The notes under the pieces were generated by a model. It was not told where the DNA came from. It saw only the letters and a program-made list of their open reading frames with translations, and ran no database searches. Below, in pieces: positions 32,562 through 46,698 of a DNA stretch of 64,000 nucleotides. The stretch spans positions 1 to 64,000 of the forward strand of contig JAOUIA010000009.1 of assembly GCA_029884335.1 (NCBI GenBank), written 5' to 3'. Positions within the stretch are counted from its first letter, which is position 1, and each line of letters begins with the position of its first letter. The stretch is from Betaproteobacteria bacterium. GTDB taxonomy: Bacteria; Pseudomonadota; Gammaproteobacteria; Burkholderiales; Casimicrobiaceae. The translations under genes were made by a program, and so were the position numbers.

Positions 32562-33004
32562 GGCCGCTCTCCGGGCAGTTCGAACAGCGACGTCGCCTCC
32601 ATGTCCAGCACACAGTGCCCGCCCTGGTTGTGCAACCGCCAACGCCAGCGCAGGATGCCGAGCCGCGGATTGCCGCGCGAGACGCGCTTCTCCAGCACGT
32701 CCGCGCGCATGCCCAGCCGATCGCCCGGGCGCACCGGGTACAGCCACTTGAGGTAGGCGAGCCCGGGCGAGGCGAAGCTCTCGGAGTCGTGCAGGAAGTT
32801 GTCGACGGCGAGCCGCATGGCCAGCCCGCAGGTCTGCCAGCCGCTGGCGATGAGCCCGCCGTGCCGCCCGTCCGCCGAGCGCTCCGGGTCGACGTGGAAC
32901 CACTGCGGGTCGTAGTCGCGCGCGAACGCGACGATCGCGTCCTCGTCCACGGCAATGGGCCCGGCCTCGAGCACCTGCCCCGCGGCGAAGTCGGCCCACT
33001 TCAT
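32558..33004 (-). CDS. MaoC-family hotdog dehydratase-like protein
   Basis: [65 protein letters not shown]. Confidence 0.92.
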   Translation of the reverse strand: MKWADFAAGQVLEAGPIAVDEDAIVAFARDYDPQWFHVDPERSADGRHGGLIASGWQTCGLAMRLAVDNFLHDSESFASPGLAYLKWLYPVRPGDRLGMRADVLEKRVSRGNPRLGILRWRWRLHNQGGHCVLDMEATSLFELPGERP

Positions 33005-34278
33005 CAGTACGTCTCGAGGTGCAGCCGCCCCTCGCGCCGCATCGCATCCGCCAGCGCGTCCCACGAGAGCCCGCCGGCGACGGCAGCGTCGCGCAGCGCC
33101 AGCAGCACGCCCTCCTCCATCGCTCGCAAGCCGCACACGTAGACGTAGGTGTCGGACTGCTGCAGGAGGCCGGCCAGGTCCGCGGCGCGCTCCCGCATCA
33201 GGTCCTGCACGTGGCGCTTCGGCTGGCCGGCCGTGCGCGAGAACGCGAGGTTGATGTCGATGAAGTCCTTCGGCAGGCTCATCAGCGGTCCGAAGTACGG
33301 CAGCTCCTCGCGCGTGCGCGCGCCGAAGAACAGCATGAGCTTGCCGCCCTCGAACTTGCCGCCCTGCCGCAGCCGCCGGCGCCACTCGGTCATCGCGCGC
33401 ATCGGCGCGCTGCCGGTGCCCGTGCAGATCATCACGATGTTCGACCGCGGGTGGTTCGGCATCAGGAACGAGGTGCCGAACGGGCCGATCACCTGCACCT
33501 TGTCGCCCACCTTGAGGTCGCAGACGTAGTTCGAGCACACGCCCTTGACGGCCCGGCCCTGGTGGTCGGCGGTCACGCGCTTCACCGTCAGCGACACGTT
33601 GTTGTAGCCGGGGCGCTCGCCGTTGCGCGGGCTCGCGACCGAGTACTGGCGCGCGCGGTGCGGCCGTCCGGAAGCGTCCGCACCGGGCGGGACGATGCCG
33701 ATCGACTGTCCCTCGAGCACCGGGAACGGCATCGCGCCGAAGTCGAGCACGACGTGGTGCGTCTCGTTGGCGAAGCCGGCCTCGGTGACGCGGAAGTTCC
33801 CCGTGACCGTGGCGACCGTCGGCGCCTTCGGCCCGTAGAGGTTCGCGTAGGCGTGCGCCGCCGACCACGGCGGCAGCAGCGACGAGTAATGCGCCGCGTC
33901 CAGGGGCACCGGCTCGCCGGGGTCGGCCGTGGCGACGACGGCGACCGCCGGCGCGACGACACCGATGACCGCCTCGGGCACACCGGCGGCGGCGAGCTCG
34001 TCGTGCGTCAGTTCCGCCGGCAGCACGTCCCAGCCGAGCTGCTCCTCGATCGAGTACACCCTCGCCGACGGCACGACGCGCCAGTTGTCGATCGCGCCGG
34101 TGGGACACGGTGCGATGCACGCGTTGCACGGCTTGCAGACGTCGGCGCGAACGACGTAGTTGCGCTCGTCGTGCGTGATCGCCCCCACCGGGCAGGTCGC
34201 CTCGCAGGTGTTGCAGCGGATGCAGATCTCCGGGTCGATCAGGTGCTGCCTGATCGTCGTCGCGGCCGCAATGTCCAT
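33004..34278 (-). CDS. boxA: Benzoyl-CoA 2,3-epoxidase reductase subunit BoxA
   Basis: Two 4Fe-4S motifs ([32 protein letters not shown]) plus FNR-type FAD/NADP reductase domain. Confidence 0.94.
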
Positions 34279-34340
34279 CGGGCTCCCGCTCGCTGTGATG
34301 TTTCGATGCGTTGCTCGCCGGCGCATCAATTCAGGTCATT

Positions 34341-34483: not shown

Positions 34484-35911
<1,428 letters not shown>

Positions 35912-36037: not shown

Positions 36038-37717
36038 TCAGACTCTGTTGAAGTCGAAGCCGGCCTTCTCGCCGGTCCCGTAGACCTTGAGCGCGCCCTT
36101 GTCGCCGACCGCGTTCGGCCGCTGGAATATCCAGTTCTGCCAGGCGGTGAGCCGCCCGAAGATGCGCGTGTCCATCGTCTCGGCGCCGCCGAAGCGCAGG
36201 TTCGCCTCCATGCCGGTGAGCGCGTCCGGCGACAGGCTCGCGCGCTCCTCGACGGCGATGCGGATCTCGTCCGCCCAGTCGATGTCGTCCGGGGCGGCGG
36301 TGACGAGCCCCAGCGCCAGCGCGTCGGTCCCCGACAGCGGCTGCCCGATCACCGCGCGCGCGGCAGCCAGCGGCTCCGCCTCGTCGTAGAAGCGCTGCGC
36401 GAGGCGCGCCTTGCCGTTCGCCATCGGGTAGGTCCCGAAGTTCGCCGCCGACAGCGCGAGCGCGGGCGCGCGCTCCGGCTCGTCGGGCAGCGCGAGCATG
36501 TAGGTCCGGTCGGCCGCGAGCGCGAGCTCCGCCAGCGTGCCGGCGAAGCACGAGCCCGGCTCGACCAGCGCGAACAGCGTCCGCGACGAAACGTCCAGCC
36601 GCGCGAGCGTGCGCCGCAGGAAGCCTACGACCTCGCGCACGAACCAGTGGCCGGCGTGACGGCGCATCGCCTCGTCGGCGGCGAGCACGGCGGCGGCGTC
36701 GCCTTCGGTCTTCAGGAGCCACGTGCCGATCGCCGGCTCGTTGGCGCGCATCTCCAGGATCGCGTCGTCGAGCTCGCGCGCCATCGCCAGCGGCCACCAC
36801 GCCGCTCCGGCGGCCTCGATCGCGGGGAGGTCCGCCGGCTGCGGGCCGCGCGGCGCACGCACCGTGATCGTCGCCGTGCGCTTGGCGCGGTCGATGTCAA
36901 CGCCCACGTGCGCGTAGGCGATGCGGTCGGCCCCGATCGTGCGCTCGATCCGCGGCAGCGCCACGCCCTTCGCGTCCGCCGGCCGGTCGCAGCGCGCAGC
37001 CAGCACGTCGGCCCGCTCGCGTACGACGCGGTCGAAGTCGGCCGGCTTCGCGATCGCGTCGACCAGCCGCCACTCGAGCGCGCGCCTGCCGCGCACGCCC
37101 TCGGTGGTCGTGCAGAAGATGTCGGCGTGGTCGTGGCGCACCTTGCGCTTGTCGGTGACGCGCGTGAGCCCCCCGGTGCCGGGCAGCACGCCGAGCAGCG
37201 GCACCTCGGGCAGCGACACCGAGGAGGAGCGGTCGTCGACCAGCACGATGTCGTCGCAGGCGAGCGCGAGCTCGTAGCCGCCGCCGGCGCAGGAGCCGTT
37301 CACTGCCGCAACGAAGCCGATGCCCGAGTGGCGGCTCGTGTCCTCCATGCCGTTGCGCGTCTCGTTGGTGAACTTGCAGAAGTTCACCTTCCACGCGTGG
37401 CTGGAGAGGCCGAGCATGAAGATGTTCGCGCCCGAGCAGAACACGCGCTCCCGCGCGCTGGTCACCACCACCGCGCGCACCTGCGGGTGCTCGAAGCGGA
37501 TGCGGTTCAACGCGTCGGCAAGTTCGATGTCGACGCCGAGGTCGTAGCTGTTGAGCTTGAGCTTGTAGCCGGGTCGCAGGCCCCCGTCCTCGGCCACGTC
37601 CAGCGCGAGCCGGGCGACCGGGCCCTCGACGTTCAGCTTCCAGTGGCGGTAGCGCGAGGGGTCGGTGCGAAAGTCGACGCGCGGGGGCGATTCGGGGGAG
37701 TTGGGATCAGCCGACAT
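36038..37717 (-). CDS. boxC: 2,3-epoxybenzoyl-CoA dihydrolase BoxC
   Basis: Crotonase-fold protein PPRVDFRTDPSRYRHWKLNVEGPVARLALDVAEDGGLRPGYKLKLNSYDLGVDIELADALNRIRFEHPQVRAVVVTSARERVFCSGANIFML. Confidence 0.96.
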   Translation of the reverse strand: MSADPNSPESPPRVDFRTDPSRYRHWKLNVEGPVARLALDVAEDGGLRPGYKLKLNSYDLGVDIELADALNRIRFEHPQVRAVVVTSARERVFCSGANIFMLGLSSHAWKVNFCKFTNETRNGMEDTSRHSGIGFVAAVNGSCAGGGYELALACDDIVLVDDRSSSVSLPEVPLLGVLPGTGGLTRVTDKRKVRHDHADIFCTTTEGVRGRRALEWRLVDAIAKPADFDRVVRERADVLAARCDRPADAKGVALPRIERTIGADRIAYAHVGVDIDRAKRTATITVRAPRGPQPADLPAIEAAGAAWWPLAMARELDDAILEMRANEPAIGTWLLKTEGDAAAVLAADEAMRRHAGHWFVREVVGFLRRTLARLDVSSRTLFALVEPGSCFAGTLAELALAADRTYMLALPDEPERAPALALSAANFGTYPMANGKARLAQRFYDEAEPLAAARAVIGQPLSGTDALALGLVTAAPDDIDWADEIRIAVEERASLSPDALTGMEANLRFGGAETMDTRIFGRLTAWQNWIFQRPNAVGDKGALKVYGTGEKAGFDFNRV

Positions 37718-37720
37718 GAC

Positions 37721-37765
37721 GCACAATAATGCCTATCATGATTTCCTTGATATGCATCATAGTGC
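37721..37765. promoter_or_regulatory. Two candidate BoxR operator half-dyads upstream of boxC
   Basis: GCACAATAATGC (37721-37732) and GCATCATAGTGC (37754-37765, reverse complement GCACTATGATGC). Confidence 0.55.
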
Positions 37766-37785
37766 CTGTCTACGGAATGTGTCAA
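37756..37785 (-). promoter_or_regulatory. Candidate sigma70 promoter of boxC
   Basis: On the minus strand TTGACA (37785-37780), 18-bp spacer, TATGAT (37761-37756). Confidence 0.7.
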
Positions 37786-37825
37786 GCGTTTCCGCATCGA
37801 TTCGGCGGGATCCCGCGAGGCGCGG

Positions 37826-38770
37826 TCAGGCGGATTGCCCGCGTGCCTGGCGGACCCTCTCGCGCAGCACGCCGAACGTCTTCTCCAGCGGCTGGGCGCT
37901 GGTGTCGACCGTGGCGTCGGCGCGCGAGTAGAACGCCTCGCGCCCGGCGAGGATGCGGCGCAGGTCGTCCATCGCCTCGCGGCTCGCCGCCATCGGCCGC
38001 ATGTCGCCCTGCGCGGCGACACGACGCATGTGATCCTCCGGCGCCGCCTGCAACCAGACCGTGAAGCAGCGCGAGACGAGCAGGTCGAACGCGGCGACAT
38101 CGGCGACCAGCCCGCCGGGGGTTGCGATCACCGCCTCCGCGTGCGTCGCGATCGCCTCCTCCAGCGCGCGCCGCTCGTAGCGCCGATAGGCGTTGGCGCC
38201 GTAAAGTGCGTGAACTTCGGGCGTGCTGCAGCCGGCAAGCCGCTCGATCTCCCGCGACACCTCGATGAACGGCACGCCTAGCTCCTCGGCCAGCATGCGC
38301 CCGAGCGTCGACTTGCCCGCGCCGCGCAGGCCCACGAGCGCGATGCGTCCGCGCCGTGTCGGGTCCTCGCCTTCGCCGCCCAGCAGGTCTCCGATCGCCA
38401 CGCGCGCGCGCCTGAGGTCCGCTTCGCTGCGCCCGGCCAGCAGTTCGCGCAGGCTCAGCCACTCCGGCGTGCTGGTGGTGACGTCGCCGAGCAGTTCCGC
38501 CAGCGGGCAGTGCAACGCGCCCGCGACCTGCTGCAGGACGAGGATCGACGCGTTGCCGATGCCGTACTCGAGGTTGGCGAGGTGCCGCTCGGACACGCCC
38601 GCCGCGCCGGCCACCGCCTTGCGGGTGAGGCCGCGCCGCGCACGCGCGTCGCGCACGCGCTCGCCGAGCGCGACGAGGAACGGGTGCTTGTCCGCGTCCG
38701 GCGCCTCGGGCGACGGCGCCGGCGCGGCTTCGTTGACCATGCGGGCTGCCGCCAACGAGGAACCCTCCAT
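37826..38770 (-). CDS. boxR: BoxR-type transcriptional regulator (XRE HTH fused to shikimate kinase-like domain)
   Basis: LGERVRDARARRGLTRKAVAGAAGVSERHLANLEYGIGNASI (HTH) and RIALVGLRGAGKSTLGRMLAEELGVPFIEVSREIERLAG (shikimate kinase-like). Confidence 0.94.
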   Translation of the reverse strand: MEGSSLAAARMVNEAAPAPSPEAPDADKHPFLVALGERVRDARARRGLTRKAVAGAAGVSERHLANLEYGIGNASILVLQQVAGALHCPLAELLGDVTTSTPEWLSLRELLAGRSEADLRRARVAIGDLLGGEGEDPTRRGRIALVGLRGAGKSTLGRMLAEELGVPFIEVSREIERLAGCSTPEVHALYGANAYRRYERRALEEAIATHAEAVIATPGGLVADVAAFDLLVSRCFTVWLQAAPEDHMRRVAAQGDMRPMAASREAMDDLRRILAGREAFYSRADATVDTSAQPLEKTFGVLRERVRQARGQSA

Positions 38771-38775
38771 CACAT

Positions 38776-38838
38776 GCACTATACTGCTTGACACGATCCA
38801 ATGCCGGTCGTATCTTGCGTCGACAAGCACAATAATGC
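38776..38838. promoter_or_regulatory. Two candidate BoxR operators in the divergent boxR/DUF4863 region
   Basis: GCACTATACTGC (38776-38787) and GCACAATAATGC (38827-38838), the latter identical to the one at 37721. Confidence 0.55.
38788..38816 (+). promoter_or_regulatory. Candidate sigma70 promoter for the DUF4863-benzoate-CoA ligase operon
   Basis: TTGACA (38788-38793), 17-bp spacer, TATCTT (38811-38816). Confidence 0.7.
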
Positions 38839-38885
38839 ATAACGCGGCGCCTGCGCAAGGGCCGCAACCTGAGCGAGGAGCCGGA

Positions 38886-39353
38886 ATGTCCCAGGACGCC
38901 TTTCGCGCGCTCGTCGGCGCGGTCACCGCCTCGATCGGTGCGCGTCCGCTCGACGGCGCTCTCGGCGACTGGCTGAACGCCAACCTCGGCCCCGGCAGCG
39001 CGACGTACGCGGCGTTGCGCGAGGCCTGCCTCGCCGGCGTCGCGGAAGGCTGGATGTGCAACCGCGAGGCCGGCGGCATCCGCTACGGCCGCGTGGCCAA
39101 GCCCGGCGACGACCTCGATCGCTTCTCCGTCGACGTCGTCGACATGCGCGACGTCGTCGGCCCGCATCACTCGCATCCCGCAGGCGAGATCGACCTCGTC
39201 ATGCCGCTCGAGGGCGACGCGCGCTTCGACGGCCGCGGCGCCGGCTGGCTCGTCTACCCGCCCGGAAGCGCCCACCATCCCACGGTGACCGGCGGGCGCG
39301 CGCTGGTCCTCTACCTGCTGCCCGAAGGACGCATCGAGTTCACGCGGCCGTGA
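38886..39353 (+). CDS. DUF4863 family cupin-like protein
   Basis: MSQDAFRALVGAVTASIGARPLDGALGDWLNANLGPGSATYAALREACLAGVAEGWMCNREAGGIRYGRV...PHHSHPAGEIDLVMPL. Confidence 0.82.
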   Translation: MSQDAFRALVGAVTASIGARPLDGALGDWLNANLGPGSATYAALREACLAGVAEGWMCNREAGGIRYGRVAKPGDDLDRFSVDVVDMRDVVGPHHSHPAGEIDLVMPLEGDARFDGRGAGWLVYPPGSAHHPTVTGGRALVLYLLPEGRIEFTRP

Positions 39354-39373: not shown

Positions 39374-40945
39374 ATGCCCGCAACTGCAGCCCCGCCCGGC
39401 GAGACGTTCAACTTCGCCGCGCACCTGGTCGAGGCGAACCGCGGCCGCGAGTCGCGCGTCGCGTACGTCGACGACGCCGGCACGCTGTCCTACGGCCAGC
39501 TCGCCGACGGCATCCGCCGGGTCGCCGCCGCGCTCGCGGCGCTCGACGTGCGGCGCGAGGAGCGCGTGTTCCTCGTGATGCACGACTGCACCGACTGGCC
39601 GGTCGCGTTCCTCGGCGCGATGTACGCGGGCGTGGTGCCGGTCGCGGTCAACACGCTGCTCACCGCCGACGACTACGCGTACATGCTGAAGCACAGTCGC
39701 GCGCAGGCCGTGATCGTCTCCGACGCGTTGCGAGCGCAGCTCGAGAGCGCGCTGGCCCGCGGCGGCCACGAAGTGAAGCACGTCGTGGTGTCGCGGCCGC
39801 AGTCGGCCCCGCCCGCGGGCTGGCACGCGTTCGACCGCTGGATCGCCGCGGCCGCGCCCGCCTCCGCGCCGGCCGCCACCGGCCCCGACGACGTCGGCTT
39901 CTGGCTGTACTCGTCGGGCTCGACCGGCCGTCCCAAGGGCACGGTGCACACCCACGCGAATCCGTACTGGACCGCCGTGGCCAACGTGCGCCTGCTCGGA
40001 TTGCGCGAGGACGACGTGCTGTTCTCGGCGGCGAAGCTCTTCTTCGCCTACGGGCTCGGCAACGCGCTCACGTTCCCGCTCACCATCGGGGCGACGACGA
40101 TCCTCATGGCCGAGCGCCCCACGCCCGACGCCGTGTTCAAGCGCTGGCTCGAGCGCAAGCCCACGGTGTTCTTCGGCGCGCCGACCGGCTACGCGGGGAT
40201 GCTCGCCGCGCCGAACGCGCCCGACCGCTCGCAGCTGAAGCTGCGCCTGTGCTCGTCGGCCGGCGAGGCGCTGCCGAAGGAGATCGGCGAGCGCTTCACC
40301 GAGCGCTACGGCGTGGCGATCGTCGACGGCATCGGGTCGACCGAGATGCTGCACGTGTTCATCTCCAACCGCCCCGACGACATCCGCTACGGCACCTCGG
40401 GCAGGCCGGTCGAGGGCTACGAGGTCGAGCTGCGCGGCGAGGACGGCCGCCTCGTCGCCGACGGGGAGGTCGGCGACCTCTACATCAACGGCCCCACCGC
40501 GGCGCTGATGTACTGGGGCAACCGCGAGAAGTCGCGCGACACGTTCCGGGGCGCGTGGACGCGCACCGGCGACAAGTACATCCGCGACGCCGAGGGCTAC
40601 TTCACGTACTGCGGCCGCAGCGACGACATGCTGAAGGTCTCCGGCCAGTACGTCTCGCCGTTCGAGGTCGAGGCGACGCTGGTGCAGCACCCGGCGGTGC
40701 TGGAGGCCGCGGTCATCGGCGTGGCCGACGAGAACGGCCTCACGCGCACCAAGGCCTTCGTCGTGCTGAAGGGCGGAAAGGAAGGCGATGCGAGCACCGA
40801 GGCGGCGCTGAAGGCCTTCGTCAAGGAGCGCCTCGCGCCGCACAAGTACCCGCGCGCGATCGAGTTCATCGCCGAGCTGCCGAAGACGGCGACCGGCAAG
40901 ATCCAGCGCTTCCGGCTGCGTGAGCGCGAAGCCGCTCGCAGCTGA
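39374..40945 (+). CDS. bclA: Benzoate-CoA ligase family protein
   Basis: ETFNFAAHLVEANRGRESRVAYVDDAGTLSYGQLADGI...FWLYSSGSTGRPKGTVHTHANPYWT...GSTEMLHVFISNRPDDIRYGTSG. Confidence 0.94.
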   Translation: MPATAAPPGETFNFAAHLVEANRGRESRVAYVDDAGTLSYGQLADGIRRVAAALAALDVRREERVFLVMHDCTDWPVAFLGAMYAGVVPVAVNTLLTADDYAYMLKHSRAQAVIVSDALRAQLESALARGGHEVKHVVVSRPQSAPPAGWHAFDRWIAAAAPASAPAATGPDDVGFWLYSSGSTGRPKGTVHTHANPYWTAVANVRLLGLREDDVLFSAAKLFFAYGLGNALTFPLTIGATTILMAERPTPDAVFKRWLERKPTVFFGAPTGYAGMLAAPNAPDRSQLKLRLCSSAGEALPKEIGERFTERYGVAIVDGIGSTEMLHVFISNRPDDIRYGTSGRPVEGYEVELRGEDGRLVADGEVGDLYINGPTAALMYWGNREKSRDTFRGAWTRTGDKYIRDAEGYFTYCGRSDDMLKVSGQYVSPFEVEATLVQHPAVLEAAVIGVADENGLTRTKAFVVLKGGKEGDASTEAALKAFVKERLAPHKYPRAIEFIAELPKTATGKIQRFRLREREAARS

Positions 40946-41807
40946 CCCCGCGGCGCCGGACGACGCGCCGAGGCTGGTCGAGGTCGACTGGGGCGGCCGG
41001 AGCGTCGCCATCGAGCACGCGTGGATCGGCAGCGCCCGCCGCGACGCGCCGCTCTTCGTGTTCCTGCACGAGGGTCTGGGGTCGCTCGCCATGTGGAAGG
41101 ACTTCCCGCGCGCGTTGTGCGACGCGCTCGGCGTGCGCGGCCTCGTCTACTCGCGCCCCGGTTACGGTGCCTCGACGCCGCGGCCGCCCGACGAGCGCTG
41201 GGACGTCGACTTCATGCATCGCCAGGCGCACGAGGTGCTGCCGGCGTTCCTCGCCGCCGTGGGAGTCGGCCCCTCTGCGCCGGCGCCCTGGCTCTTCGGG
41301 CACTCCGACGGCGGCTCGATCGCCCTGCTCTACGCCGCGCGCTTCCCCGGCCGGGTCGCCGGCCTGGCGGTGCTGGCGCCGCACGTCTTCGTCGAGGACG
41401 TGGGCCTCGCCAGCATCGACGCCGCCCGGCAGACTTTTCTGACCGGCAACCTCAGGGACCGGCTCGCGAGGTACCATCGCGACGTGGATTCGGCATTCTG
41501 GGGGTGGAACGACATCTGGCTGCACCCGCCGTTCCGCCGCTGGAACATCGAGGAGGAGATCGCCGCGATCCGCGTCCCCGTGCTCGCCGTGCAGGGACGC
41601 GACGACGAGTACGGCACGCTGGCGCAGGTGGAGGGCGTCGCGAAGGCGGTGCCGGGCACCCGCGTGGTCGTGCTCGACGATTGCGGACACTCGCCCCACA
41701 AGGACCAACCGGCGCGCCTCGTCGAGGAGGTGGCGCGCTTCCATGCCAACCCGGGTGCCGCAGGCACCGGCTCCTCGCCACACCAAGCACGCCAGGAGGA
41801 ACCATGA
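40920..41807 (+). CDS. Alpha/beta hydrolase
   Basis: FVFLHEGLGSLAMWKDFPRALCDALGVRGLVYSRPGYGAST...LFGHSDGGSIALLYAARFP...DDCGHSPHKDQP; GTG start inside the bclA 3' end. Confidence 0.9.
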   Translation: MSAKPLAADPAAPDDAPRLVEVDWGGRSVAIEHAWIGSARRDAPLFVFLHEGLGSLAMWKDFPRALCDALGVRGLVYSRPGYGASTPRPPDERWDVDFMHRQAHEVLPAFLAAVGVGPSAPAPWLFGHSDGGSIALLYAARFPGRVAGLAVLAPHVFVEDVGLASIDAARQTFLTGNLRDRLARYHRDVDSAFWGWNDIWLHPPFRRWNIEEEIAAIRVPVLAVQGRDDEYGTLAQVEGVAKAVPGTRVVVLDDCGHSPHKDQPARLVEEVARFHANPGAAGTGSSPHQARQEEP

Positions 41808-42994
41808 AGTCGAACACCCTGAACCGCCTCAAGCGGCTCGCCCTCGCTTCCGCCGTCGGGCTCGCAGTCGGCGTAGCCGCCGGCCCCGCGGCCGCGCAGC
41901 AAAAGCTCAAGGTCGGCCTGATGCTCCCCTACACCGGCACGTTCGCCGCGCTCGGCAACGCGATCGAGAACGGCTTCCGCCTCGCCGTCAGCGAGAACGG
42001 CGGCAGGCTCGGCGGCCGCGAGGTCGAGTACTTCAAGGTCGACGACGAATCCGACCCGGCGAAGGCCACCGACAACGCGAACAAGCTGATCAAGCGCGAC
42101 CAGGTCGACGTGCTGGTCGGCACCGTGCACTCCGGCGTGCAGATGGGCCTTGCCAAGGCGGCCAACGACAACAACGTGCTGCTGATCGTGCCGAACGCGG
42201 GCGCGGGCGCGGTCACCGGCCCGATGTGCAGCACGAACATCTACCGCAGCTCGTTCTCGAACTGGCAGCCCGGCTACGCGATGGGCGAGGTGGTCGCCAA
42301 GCGCGGCCACAAGAACGTCGTCACCATCACCTGGAAGTACGCGGCCGGCGACGAGTCGGTCGGCGGCTTCAAGGAGGCCTTCGAGAAGGGCGGCGGCAAG
42401 ATCGTCAAGGAGCTCTCCCTGCCGTTCCCGAACGTCGAGTTCCAGGCGCTGCTGACCGAGATCGCCTCGCTCAAGCCGGACGCGGTCTACACGTTCTTTG
42501 CCGGCGGCGGCGCGGTCAAGTTCGTCAAGGACTACGACGCAGCGGGCCTGCGCAAGACGATCCCGCTCTACGGCGCGGGCTTCCTCACCGACGGGACGCT
42601 GGAAGCGCAGGGCGCCTCCGCGGAGGGCTTGCTGACGACGCTGCACTACGCCGACGGCATCGACAACCCGAGGGAGAAGGCGTTCCGCGCGGGCTACGCG
42701 AAGGCCTTCCCGAGCGCGCCGGCGCCCGACGTGTACGCGGTGCAGGGCTACGACGCGGGGCAGATGCTCGCGACCGCGATGGCAGCGACCAAGGGCGACG
42801 CGAAGAAGTTCGACGTGATCCACGCAGAACTCTCCAAGGCCACGATCGACTCGCCGCGCGGCAAGTTCACGCTCTCGAAGTCGGGCAACCCGGTGCAGGA
42901 CATGTACCTGCGCGAGGTGAAGGGCAAGGAGAACCGCGTGGTCGGCATCGCGTCGAAGGCGCTCTCCGACCCGTCGCGCGGCTGCAAGCTGTAG
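41804..42994 (+). CDS. Liv-type ABC transporter substrate-binding protein
   Basis: Signal peptide, then QQKLKVGLMLPYTGTFAALGNAIENGFRLAVSENGGRLGGREVEYFKVDDESDPAKATDNANKLI. Confidence 0.93.
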   Translation: MKSNTLNRLKRLALASAVGLAVGVAAGPAAAQQKLKVGLMLPYTGTFAALGNAIENGFRLAVSENGGRLGGREVEYFKVDDESDPAKATDNANKLIKRDQVDVLVGTVHSGVQMGLAKAANDNNVLLIVPNAGAGAVTGPMCSTNIYRSSFSNWQPGYAMGEVVAKRGHKNVVTITWKYAAGDESVGGFKEAFEKGGGKIVKELSLPFPNVEFQALLTEIASLKPDAVYTFFAGGGAVKFVKDYDAAGLRKTIPLYGAGFLTDGTLEAQGASAEGLLTTLHYADGIDNPREKAFRAGYAKAFPSAPAPDVYAVQGYDAGQMLATAMAATKGDAKKFDVIHAELSKATIDSPRGKFTLSKSGNPVQDMYLREVKGKENRVVGIASKALSDPSRGCKL

Positions 42995-43047
42995 CGGCTG
43001 CGGAGGCTTCGCGCCCCTCGCACATGCCTCGCGCAACGGTCCGTCAC

Positions 43048-43126
43048 GTCGTCATTCCCGCGCAAGCGGGAATCCAGCGTCTTTGCGTTGCAGAGACGCC
43101 GGGTCCCCGCCTTCGCGGGGACGACG
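43048..43126. repeat. REPIN-like inverted repeat (copy D), livK-livH spacer
   Basis: cgtcgtcattcccgcgcaagcgggaatccag ... ccgggtccccgccttcgcggggacgacg. Confidence 0.85.
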
Positions 43127-43161
43127 GCGGGCCCGTTCGCGCGACCCGATAGTCGCAAGGC

Positions 43162-44043
43162 ATGGAGTTCGGCACGTTCCTGGTGCAGTGCCTCAACGCG
43201 CTGCAGTACGGGCTCCTGCTGTTCCTGGTCGCCAGCGGCCTCACGCTCATCTTCGGCATCATGGGCGTGATCAACCTGGCGCACGGCAGCTTCTACATGA
43301 TCGGCGCCTACATGGCGTACGCGCTGGCGCCGTTCGTGGCGAAGTGGACCGGCGGCGGCTTCTTCGCCACGCTCGCCGTCGGCCTCGTGCTCTCGGTCGC
43401 CCTGGGCTACGTGCTCGAGTGGGCGTTCTACTCGTTCCTCTACGAGCGCGAGCACCTGCAGCAGGTGCTGATGACCTACGGGCTCATCCTCGTGTTCGAG
43501 GAGCTGCGCAGCATCCTCGTCGGCAACGACGTGCACGGTGTCAAGGCGCCGGACTGGCTCGCCGGCAGCATCCCGCTCGGCGACCTGATGACCTACCCGG
43601 TCTACCGGCTGTTCATCTCGGCGGTGTGCGTGGCGCTCGCCGCCGCGATGTACCTCGTGCTCACCCGCACGCGGCTCGGCATGATGATCCGCGCCGGCGC
43701 CACGAACCGCGAGATGGTGCAGTCGCTGGGCGTGGACATCCAGTTCCTCTACCGCGTGGTGTTCGCGGCTGGCGTCGCGCTCGCCGTGTTCGCCGGCATG
43801 ATCGCCGCGCCGGTCTCGTCCGTGTACCCGGGGATGGGCAGCCAGGTGCTCATCATCTGCTTCGTCGTCGTCGTCATCGGCGGCATCGGCTCGGTGCGCG
43901 GCGCGCTGTTCGCCGCGCTGCTGATCGGGCTGGTCGACACGTTCGGCAAGGTCGTGTTCCCGCACGCCGCCGGAGTGCTCGTCTACGTGATGATGGCGCT
44001 GATCCTCCTCTGGAAGCCCGACGGGCTGTTCAAGGCGGGCTGA
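43162..44043 (+). CDS. Liv-type ABC permease (LivH-like)
   Basis: MEFGTFLVQCLNALQYGLLLFLVASGLTLIFGIMGVINLAHGSFYMIGAYMAY. Confidence 0.94.
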   Translation: MEFGTFLVQCLNALQYGLLLFLVASGLTLIFGIMGVINLAHGSFYMIGAYMAYALAPFVAKWTGGGFFATLAVGLVLSVALGYVLEWAFYSFLYEREHLQQVLMTYGLILVFEELRSILVGNDVHGVKAPDWLAGSIPLGDLMTYPVYRLFISAVCVALAAAMYLVLTRTRLGMMIRAGATNREMVQSLGVDIQFLYRVVFAAGVALAVFAGMIAAPVSSVYPGMGSQVLIICFVVVVIGGIGSVRGALFAALLIGLVDTFGKVVFPHAAGVLVYVMMALILLWKPDGLFKAG

Positions 44044-44044
44044 G

Positions 44045-45052
44045 TTGGACTTCCGCGGCGGACGCAACGTCGTGCTCGCGGCCGCCGTCGTGGCGGCGCT
44101 CGCGCTCTTCCCCCTCGTGGCGGGGAAGTTCGGCATCGACCTCGTCACCAAGATCATGATCTTCGCGGTGCTCGCGCTCTCGCTCGAGCTCCTCGTCGGG
44201 CAGACCGGGCTCGTCTGCTTCGGTCAGGCCGCGTTCTTCGGCATCGGCGCGTACGCCGTCGTGCTGGCCACGCCGCAGTACCAGGCGGTGTCGATCTTCT
44301 GGCTCGCCCCGCTCGCGGTGGCGTGCGCCACGCTCTACGCGCTGTTCGTCGGCTCGCTGGTGCTGCGCACGCGCGGCGTGTACTTCATCATGGTCACGCT
44401 CGCGTTCGCGCAGATGGCCTACTACGTGTTCCACGACACCCCGCTCGGCCGCGGCACCGACGGCGTCTACCTCTACGTCAGGCCGTCCGCCGAGGTGTTC
44501 GGCGTGACGCTGGTGAACTTCGAGAAGCCGGTGTCGCTCTACTACGTCGCGCTCGCCGCGCTGGTCGCGACGTTCGCGTTCCTCGCCGTGCTCCTGCGCT
44601 CGCGCTTCGGCCGGGCGCTGGCCGGCATCAAGGCCAACGAGCAGCGCATGCGCGCCGCGGGCTTCTCCACCTACGCGTACAAGCTCGCCGCATTCACGCT
44701 GTCGGGCGCGATCGCCGGCTTCGCGGGGGTGCTCTTCGCGGTCAAGGACGCGTTCGTCAACCCCGAGCTGCTGGCGTGGCACCTGTCCGGCTCGCTGCTC
44801 GTCATGATCATCCTCGGCGGGTTAGGCCGCCTGTGGGGCGCGGTGATCGGCGCCTTCGCCTACGCGCTGCTGCAGGAGTTCTTCCAGTCGCAGGCGATCT
44901 TCGGCGATCTCGCGAAGCACTGGCTGCTCGGCCTCGGGCTCACGATCATCGCGATGGTCGCGCTGCTGCCCGAGGGACTCGCCGGCCTGCCGGCCGCCGT
45001 CTCGCGCCGCCTGGCGCGCAAGCCCGCGAGGAGCGCCGGTGGCAACGCCTGA
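44045..45052 (+). CDS. Liv-type ABC permease (LivM-like)
   Basis: LALSLELLVGQTGLVCFGQAAFFGIGAYAVVL...FFQSQAIFGDLAKHWLLGLGLTIIAMVALLPEGLAGL. Confidence 0.94.
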   Translation: MDFRGGRNVVLAAAVVAALALFPLVAGKFGIDLVTKIMIFAVLALSLELLVGQTGLVCFGQAAFFGIGAYAVVLATPQYQAVSIFWLAPLAVACATLYALFVGSLVLRTRGVYFIMVTLAFAQMAYYVFHDTPLGRGTDGVYLYVRPSAEVFGVTLVNFEKPVSLYYVALAALVATFAFLAVLLRSRFGRALAGIKANEQRMRAAGFSTYAYKLAAFTLSGAIAGFAGVLFAVKDAFVNPELLAWHLSGSLLVMIILGGLGRLWGAVIGAFAYALLQEFFQSQAIFGDLAKHWLLGLGLTIIAMVALLPEGLAGLPAAVSRRLARKPARSAGGNA

Positions 45053-45794
45053 CGTGCTGATGCGCGGCGAGAAGCTCACGCGCCGCTGGGGCGGTCTCAC
45101 GGCCGTCGACGAGGTGTCGCTGGAGCTCGCGCGCGGCAGCGTGCACGCGGTGATCGGCACCAACGGCGCCGGCAAGTCGACGCTGATCAACCTGCTCTCC
45201 GGCGAGATCCCGCCCTCCTCCGGCCGCGTCGAGCTCAAGGGGGTCGACGTCACTGCCTGGCCGCAACCTGCCCGCGCGCGCGCCGGGCTCGGGCGCAGCT
45301 ACCAACGCACGACGATCTTCCCGCAGTTCACCGTTTTCGAGAACTGCAGGCTCTCCGCGCAGTCGCGCCTGCAGCGGCCGTGGGCGTGGTGGGAGCGCGC
45401 CGATGCCTGCGCGCTCGCCGTCGAGGCCGCGCGCGGCGCGGCGGCGAAGGCCGGCCTGGCCGCCGAGATCGACCGCCCGGCCGGGCTCCTCTCGCACGGC
45501 GGCCGGCGCCAGCTCGAGATCGCGATGTGCCTCGCCACCGACCCCGAGGTGCTGCTGCTCGACGAGCCGCTCGCCGGCATGGGCGCCGAGGAGACCGACC
45601 GCATGCTCGAGCTTCTTGCAGAGCTGCGCCCCGGCCACGCGATCCTGCTGGTCGAGCACGACATGGACGCCGTGTTCCGCGTCGCCGACCGCATCACCGT
45701 GATGGTGAACGGCGCCGTCATCGCCTCCGACGCGCCCCAGGCCGTGCGCGCGAATCCCGAAGTGCAGGCCGCCTACCTCGGACACCACGCGTGA
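45039..45794 (+). CDS. Liv-type ABC ATP-binding protein (LivG-like)
   Basis: GTNGAGKSTLINLLSG, LSHGGRRQLEIAMCLA, LLLDEPLAGMG. Confidence 0.94.
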   Translation: MATPDVLMRGEKLTRRWGGLTAVDEVSLELARGSVHAVIGTNGAGKSTLINLLSGEIPPSSGRVELKGVDVTAWPQPARARAGLGRSYQRTTIFPQFTVFENCRLSAQSRLQRPWAWWERADACALAVEAARGAAAKAGLAAEIDRPAGLLSHGGRRQLEIAMCLATDPEVLLLDEPLAGMGAEETDRMLELLAELRPGHAILLVEHDMDAVFRVADRITVMVNGAVIASDAPQAVRANPEVQAAYLGHHA

Positions 45795-45795
45795 G

Positions 45796-45980
45796 CCCGC
45801 AGGGCCGTCCCAAGGGCGAACAAGCCCCGCAGCGCGCAGCGCGGAGGGAAAACCCAATTCGCCCGCAGGGCCGTCCCAAGGGCGAACAAGCCCCGCAGCG
45901 CGCAGCGCGGAGGGAAAACCCAATTCGCCCGCAGGGCCGTCCCAAGGGCGAACAAGCCCCGCAGCGCGCAGCGCGGAGGG
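45796..45980 (+). repeat. 66-bp direct tandem repeat, about 2.8 copies, in the livG-livF spacer
   Basis: Unit cccgcagggccgtcccaagggcgaacaagccccgcagcgcgcagcgcggagggaaaacccaattcg starts at 45796, 45862 and 45928; copies appear identical until the last diverges after ggaggg. Confidence 0.97.
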
Positions 45981-45987
45981 TAGTCCA

Positions 45988-46698
45988 ATGAGCGCGGAGA
46001 AGCTCATCGAAGCGCGCGGCCTGCACGCGTGGTACGGCAGCAGCCACGTGCTGCACGGCGTCGACCTCCTGCTGGGCCGCGGCGAAACCGTCGGCCTGCT
46101 CGGGCGCAACGGGATGGGCAAGTCGACGCTGATCCGCACGCTGCTGGGTCACGTACGCGAGCGCGACGGGCGCATCAGCGTCGCCGGGCGCGACGTGTCG
46201 AAGGCGCGCCCGCACGAGGTCGCGAAGCTCGGCGTGGCCTACGTCCCCGAGGGCCGCGGCATCTTCCCCAACCTCACGGTGCGCGAGAACCTGCTCATGG
46301 CGGCGCGGCCGTCGCGCGACGGCCGCCGCGAGTGGAACTTCGAGCGCGTGATCGAGACGTTTCCCCGCCTCGGCCAGCGGCTGGACCACTTCGGCGCGCA
46401 GCTCTCCGGCGGCGAGCAGCAGATGCTGTCGATCGGCCGGGCGCTCGCCACCAACCCCGACGCGATCATCCTCGACGAGGCGACCGAGGGGCTGGCCCCG
46501 CTGATCGTGCAGGAGATCTGGCGCGTCATCGGGACGATCCGCACGGCGGGCATCGCGACGATGGTGGTCGACCGCGACTACCGGCGCGTGGCCGCGGAGT
46601 CGGATCGCGTCGTCGTGCTGCAGAAGGGGCGCGTGGTGCTGGAAGGTGCTGCGAAGTCGGTGCGGCACGAGGAGTTGGCGGGTTTCCTCGGCGTCTGA
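45988..46698 (+). CDS. Liv-type ABC ATP-binding protein (LivF-like)
   Basis: GRNGMGKSTLIRTLLG, LSGGEQQMLSIGRALATNP, IILDEATEGLAP. Confidence 0.94.
   Translation: MSAEKLIEARGLHAWYGSSHVLHGVDLLLGRGETVGLLGRNGMGKSTLIRTLLGHVRERDGRISVAGRDVSKARPHEVAKLGVAYVPEGRGIFPNLTVRENLLMAARPSRDGRREWNFERVIETFPRLGQRLDHFGAQLSGGEQQMLSIGRALATNPDAIILDEATEGLAPLIVQEIWRVIGTIRTAGIATMVVDRDYRRVAAESDRVVVLQKGRVVLEGAAKSVRHEELAGFLGV

Follow-up and report, generated by a model that had tools for sequence, protein, structure and literature searches.

The two short dyads that flank the promoter between boxR and the divergent bclA operon are very probably operators of BoxR, a regulator that would repress both catabolic operons of the aerobic benzoyl-CoA (box) pathway until relieved by benzoyl-CoA, and would also control its own gene. 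Repression of the bclA and boxCBA operons, together with autoregulation of boxR, is well supported as a prediction from sequence comparison. DNA binding, the formation of dimers, the response to benzoyl-CoA and repression itself were ascribed to the protein by analogy to BoxR/BzdR of Azoarcus sp. CIB.

The window, i.e. the whole 64-kb stretch of DNA that was analysed, carries an aerobic benzoyl-CoA (box) cluster, with boxR, boxC, boxB and boxA on the minus strand and a PF16155 gene, bclA, a hydrolase gene and ABC transporter genes on the plus strand. The boxR gene (37826-38770, minus strand; alternative start at 38740) was assigned with 439 bits to NF006015 (cut-off 204). Its product combines an N-terminal XRE helix-turn-helix domain (HTH_3, 29-83) with a C-terminal shikimate-kinase-like domain (SKI, 139-288), and it is encoded together with boxABC and bclA, not with bzd genes. 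By analogy, it would be a benzoyl-CoA-responsive repressor. It was the sole family member over the cut-off in the 3.66-Mb genome, and no BzdR paralogue exceeded the family cut-off there.

BoxA, BoxB and BoxC were identified as equivalog matches. On the minus strand, boxC, coding for 2,3-epoxybenzoyl-CoA dihydrolase, is located at 36038-37717 (TIGR03222, 968 bits), boxB at 34484-35911 (TIGR03225, 906 bits) and boxA at 33004-34329 (TIGR03224, 711 bits; coordinates of the listed reading frame, whose actual start may be slightly further in). The divergent operon on the plus strand begins with a cupin-like PF16155 (PnbB/DUF4863) gene (38886-39353, E=1e-52; start codon taken from the sequence), followed by bclA for benzoate-CoA ligase (39374-40945; TIGR02262, 787 bits) and an alpha/beta hydrolase gene (40920-41807; Abhydrolase_1). 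The hydrolase is likely the box-cluster lactonase, judged by its position, which is the same as in the published divergon. Genes of a benzoate-type ABC transporter (substrate-binding protein, permeases and ATPases; Peripla_BP_6, UrtB- and UrtE-like profiles) follow at 41801-46698. A match to boxD over the family cut-off was not obtained in the genome; a different aldehyde dehydrogenase may substitute, or the gene may fall in a gap.

A sigma70-like promoter of the PnbB-bclA-hydrolase-ABC transporter operon was located at 38788-38816 on the plus strand. It consists of TTGACA (38788-38793), a 17-bp spacer and TATCTT (38811-38816), exactly as given in the preliminary description, and matches the consensus at 10/12 positions. 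The promoter of boxCBA, also sigma70-like, was found on the minus strand at 37756-37785 (TTGACA-N18-TATGAT); with 11/12 positions it was the stronger match in the scan. Consensus scanning of 37650-38950 yielded four matches of any quality, compared to a mean of 0.1 in shuffled sequences.

Operators were assigned by comparison to ATGCACTATAGTGCAT, the 16-bp palindromic BoxR/BzdR motif derived by phylogenetic footprinting in 32 Betaproteobacteria (Suvorova and Gelfand 2019, PMC6449761), and with a weight matrix that was built from relatives only, with the window left out, and scanned over the 64 kb. Four sites were retained, none of which was assigned a strand. Operator A (ATGCACTATACTGCTT, 38774-38789) has 2 mismatches to ATGCACTATAGTGCAT and the best matrix score of the window (23.4); its final two bases double as the initial TT of the -35 box TTGACA. 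It is positioned upstream of boxR, 3 bp from the start at ATG 38770 or 33 bp from that at ATG 38740. Operator B (AAGCACAATAATGCAT, 38825-38840; 3 mismatches, score 20.6) spans the predicted start region of the bclA operon, at about +3 to +18. At the boxC promoter, operator D (ATGCATCATAGTGCCT, 37752-37767; 3 mismatches, score 14.5), which was absent from the preliminary description, overlaps the -10 box, and operator C (ACGCACAATAATGCCT, 37719-37734; 4 mismatches, score 12.8) lies directly upstream of the boxC start codon at a distance of 33 bp from D. These sites were ranked A, B, D and C at positions 1-4 of the window, and the next candidate scored 3.6. B and C, which differ from the consensus at 3 and 4 positions, respectively, may therefore have modest affinity.

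Both dyads noted earlier are contained in these operators. The first, GCACTATACTGC at 38776-38787 inside operator A, does abut the -35 box, which starts at 38788. The second, GCACAATAATGC at 38827-38838 inside operator B, proved identical to the copy at 37721-37732 beside boxC, as had been described. The start-to-start distance of 51 bp corresponds to 4.9 turns at 10.5 bp per turn, in agreement with the earlier figure of about five. Both dyads are imperfect, with arm pairs matching at 5/6 and 4/6 positions. As for known BoxR operators, the sites fit a TGCA-N6-TGCA palindrome (2, 3, 3 and 4 mismatches for A, B, D and C), are situated at box-gene promoters and beside boxR, and occur in multiples a few helical turns apart (51 bp between A and B; 33 bp between D and C).

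Near-matches to the motif were confined to this locus. With up to 3 mismatches allowed, ATGCACTATAGTGCAT was found at three places in the 3.66-Mb genome, namely A, B and D, and the reversed 16-bp motif, used as control under the same threshold, was found at none. Because base composition alone predicts about 1.4 scattered places genome-wide at this threshold, the signal was seen in the clustering within one 1.1-kb locus and not in the count. Exact GCACWATANTGC likewise occurred at three places in the genome, all within the box locus. Scanning of the window with the 12-mer and 2 mismatches allowed gave 13 matches versus 8.9 expected, which is no excess over shuffled sequences; therefore, the argument was based on the 16-bp motif and its conservation. 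One-mismatch matches elsewhere in the genome (L004-L006) obtained matrix scores of -1.2, 8.3 and -3.1, lower than any of the four box sites, and were discarded.

Conservation was analysed in 109 boxR loci from two collections, chosen by BoxR similarity and including many of Variovorax. A site upstream of boxR was present with up to 3 mismatches in 99 of the 109 relatives and with up to 4 mismatches in 106, compared to a minimum of 6-8 mismatches in shuffled upstream copies for 106 of the 109. After filtering at 75% identity (ungapped), 67 relatives were left, and an operator fused to the -35 box (TGCTTGAC, corresponding to (T)GTCAAGCA on the boxR strand) was found in 50 of these 67, which are not independent events and represent an effective number below 67. 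The fused layout was missing in about a quarter of the filtered relatives; by hand count, it spans at least six families of the order. Among the 50 relatives with a fused -35 box, the best second operator was located 49-52 bp from A in 46, and a -10-like hexamer, mostly TATGGT, TATCGT or TATCTT, followed 17 bp from the -35 box in nearly all. Spacings of this pair of 21, 26-27 and 30 bp were observed in other relatives. At the boxC promoter of the relatives, inspection revealed an operator at the -10 box, frequently with TTGAC ahead of it at the distance expected of a promoter, and the commonest distance between the sites was 33 bp, the same as between D and C.

The arrangement differs in L009, L010, L017, L018, L020, L026 and L032. 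In these, boxR is located beside boxC and preceded by one or two operators, but operator and -35 box are not fused and no divergent bclA was detected in the flanking sequence retrieved. Many Variovorax-like relatives, L047, L048 and L076 among them, share an inverted repeat of short length (GGTGTTTACCC or a similar sequence). It lies on the boxR side of operator A at a distance of about 20-35 bp, close to where boxR is predicted to have its 5' end; it is missing in the window and is possibly the site of another regulator or a leader element. As a marker of boxR genomes, AWGCANTATANTGCAT with 1 mismatch was too loose to discriminate, matching 127 of 300 genomes of the order; perfect matches, among the matches listed, were mostly in boxR genomes.

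The locus resembles the BoxR regulons described in the main text of Suvorova and Gelfand (PMC6449761) in the motif ATGCACTATAGTGCAT, in the multiplicity of sites and in the divergent boxR-boxCBA and bclA/PF16155/transporter operons. According to that text, BoxR/BzdR sites are nearly always multiple and mostly 3-5 helical turns apart, and the divergon, the gene order of which recurs here, includes a PF16155 gene and a benzoate ABC transporter. That operator A directly adjoins the -35 box, as seen here (TGCTTGACA), is not stated in the main text of PMC6449761, its site table aside. In Azoarcus sp. CIB, the BoxR/BzdR repressor binds TGCA palindromes and is released when benzoyl-CoA is bound by the shikimate-kinase-like domain (PMC6449761, PMC4424350, PMC3602430). 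BzdR binds the promoter PN of this strain as four dimers, and wrapped DNA was visualized by AFM (PMC6678401). Operator regions OR1-OR3 of PN contain TGCA-N6-TGCA palindromes around a sigma70 promoter, as observed here; an XRE/shikimate-kinase repressor and an operator over the start region are also shared, and a response to benzoyl-CoA would be expected by analogy. In contrast to the locus studied here, PN has three regions, with OR2 and OR3 upstream between -63 and -146, a TGCA-N15-TGCA element and a site for an FNR-type activator (PMC6678401), whereas the bclA-operon promoter has two sites of the N6 type and a consensus -35 box.

By analogy to these systems, BoxR dimers would occupy A and B in the absence of benzoate. 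At A, the repressor would mask the edge of the -35 box of the bclA operon as well as the DNA immediately preceding boxR, and at B the transcription start of the bclA operon; thereby, RNA polymerase would be kept off the PnbB-bclA-hydrolase-ABC transporter operon and boxR would be autoregulated. The pair D and C would act alike on boxCBA, with D over the -10 box and C in the leader. After entry of benzoate, basal BclA would produce benzoyl-CoA, the binding of which to the shikimate-kinase-like domain of BoxR would release both promoters. Simple occlusion would account for the repression of both operons and the autoregulation of boxR.

Assignment of the dyads to a global factor or to another specific regulator, for example BenR (TGCA-N6-GGNTA), was considered since BenR/XylS and CopG also use TGCA-containing sites (PMC6678401). 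This is very improbable: the GGNTA half is missing, with the second half reading TGCTT or TGCAT, it is the BoxR/BzdR palindrome that the dyads match, and the sites travel with boxR across the relatives. A mere chance likeness, as short AT-rich dyads around a promoter might show, would fit the loose 12-mer scan and the number of near-matches predicted from composition, but every near-match of the genome lies within a single 1.1-kb stretch and both position and sequence of the sites are kept in relatives from several families, so that coincidence is scarcely credible.

With BoxR as the regulator acting at these sites, two additions to simple occlusion were weighed. TATAGT on the minus strand inside operator A had been proposed as the -10 box of boxR, in which case BoxR would directly occlude the boxR promoter and the transcript would start at or beside ATG 38770. 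The predicted start, 6-8 bases further on at about 38770-38772, does coincide with this ATG, and TATAAT was present on the boxR strand in 10 of the 50 fused relatives compared to 0 of 50 on the mirror strand, which is taken as a hint only. Against this, a -35 box at 15-19 bp is lacking in the window (3 mismatches at best), the relatives exhibit no clear -35 enrichment over control spacings, the promoter scan returned no minus-strand promoter at site A, and the BoxR operator itself has TATA as its core. This -10 assignment is therefore weakly supported and has a lesser, though appreciable, chance of being correct. If transcription began from TATAGT and ATG 38770 were used, the boxR mRNA would be leaderless; ATG 38740 is the second candidate. 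Somewhat more doubtful is a cooperative wrapped or looped complex, in which BoxR bound to A and B on one face of the DNA, about five turns apart, would behave like BzdR on PN and which may also include the boxC pair at a distance of about 1 kb. The four BzdR dimers on wrapped PN DNA (PMC6678401), the usual multiplicity of sites at 3-5 turns reported in the main text of PMC6449761 and the tightly kept spacing of 49-52 bp are consistent with it. However, a promoter geometry with A on the -35 box and B on +1 also yields tight spacing, integral turns are not required because relatives also have spacings of 21, 26-27 and 30 bp, and occlusion by itself explains repression. Looping, as suggested previously, is not needed, since a distance of 51 bp is short and it would be enough to block -35 and +1; the wrapping by BzdR keeps wrapping possible. 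A more elaborate arrangement, in which the fused TGCA-N6-TGCTTGACA is a conserved composite of -35 blocker for the catabolic operon and boxR promoter core (or -10 box), and in which both promoters are switched together by a single wrapped complex that it forms with B and the boxC pair, was judged improbable. Thus, of the earlier proposal that one regulator autoregulates boxR and represses the benzoate operon, the regulatory scheme itself agrees with the published motif and divergon and with the layout conserved in relatives, and is very likely right; TATAGT and looping were not established.

The locus constitutes an ordinary on/off switch that was already described in related bacteria, and the general picture of BoxR is unchanged. 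What sequence comparison adds is a conserved layout expressed in numbers, above all the constant contact between operator and -35 box. By this, the aerobic benzoyl-CoA (box) pathway was given an operator/promoter layout in an experimentally unstudied lineage, and the layout, with one operator at the -35 box and a second over the start at 49-52 bp, is common to several families. It eases tests by mutation of A and B and by half-turn changes of their spacing, and could aid the construction of benzoyl-CoA sensors.
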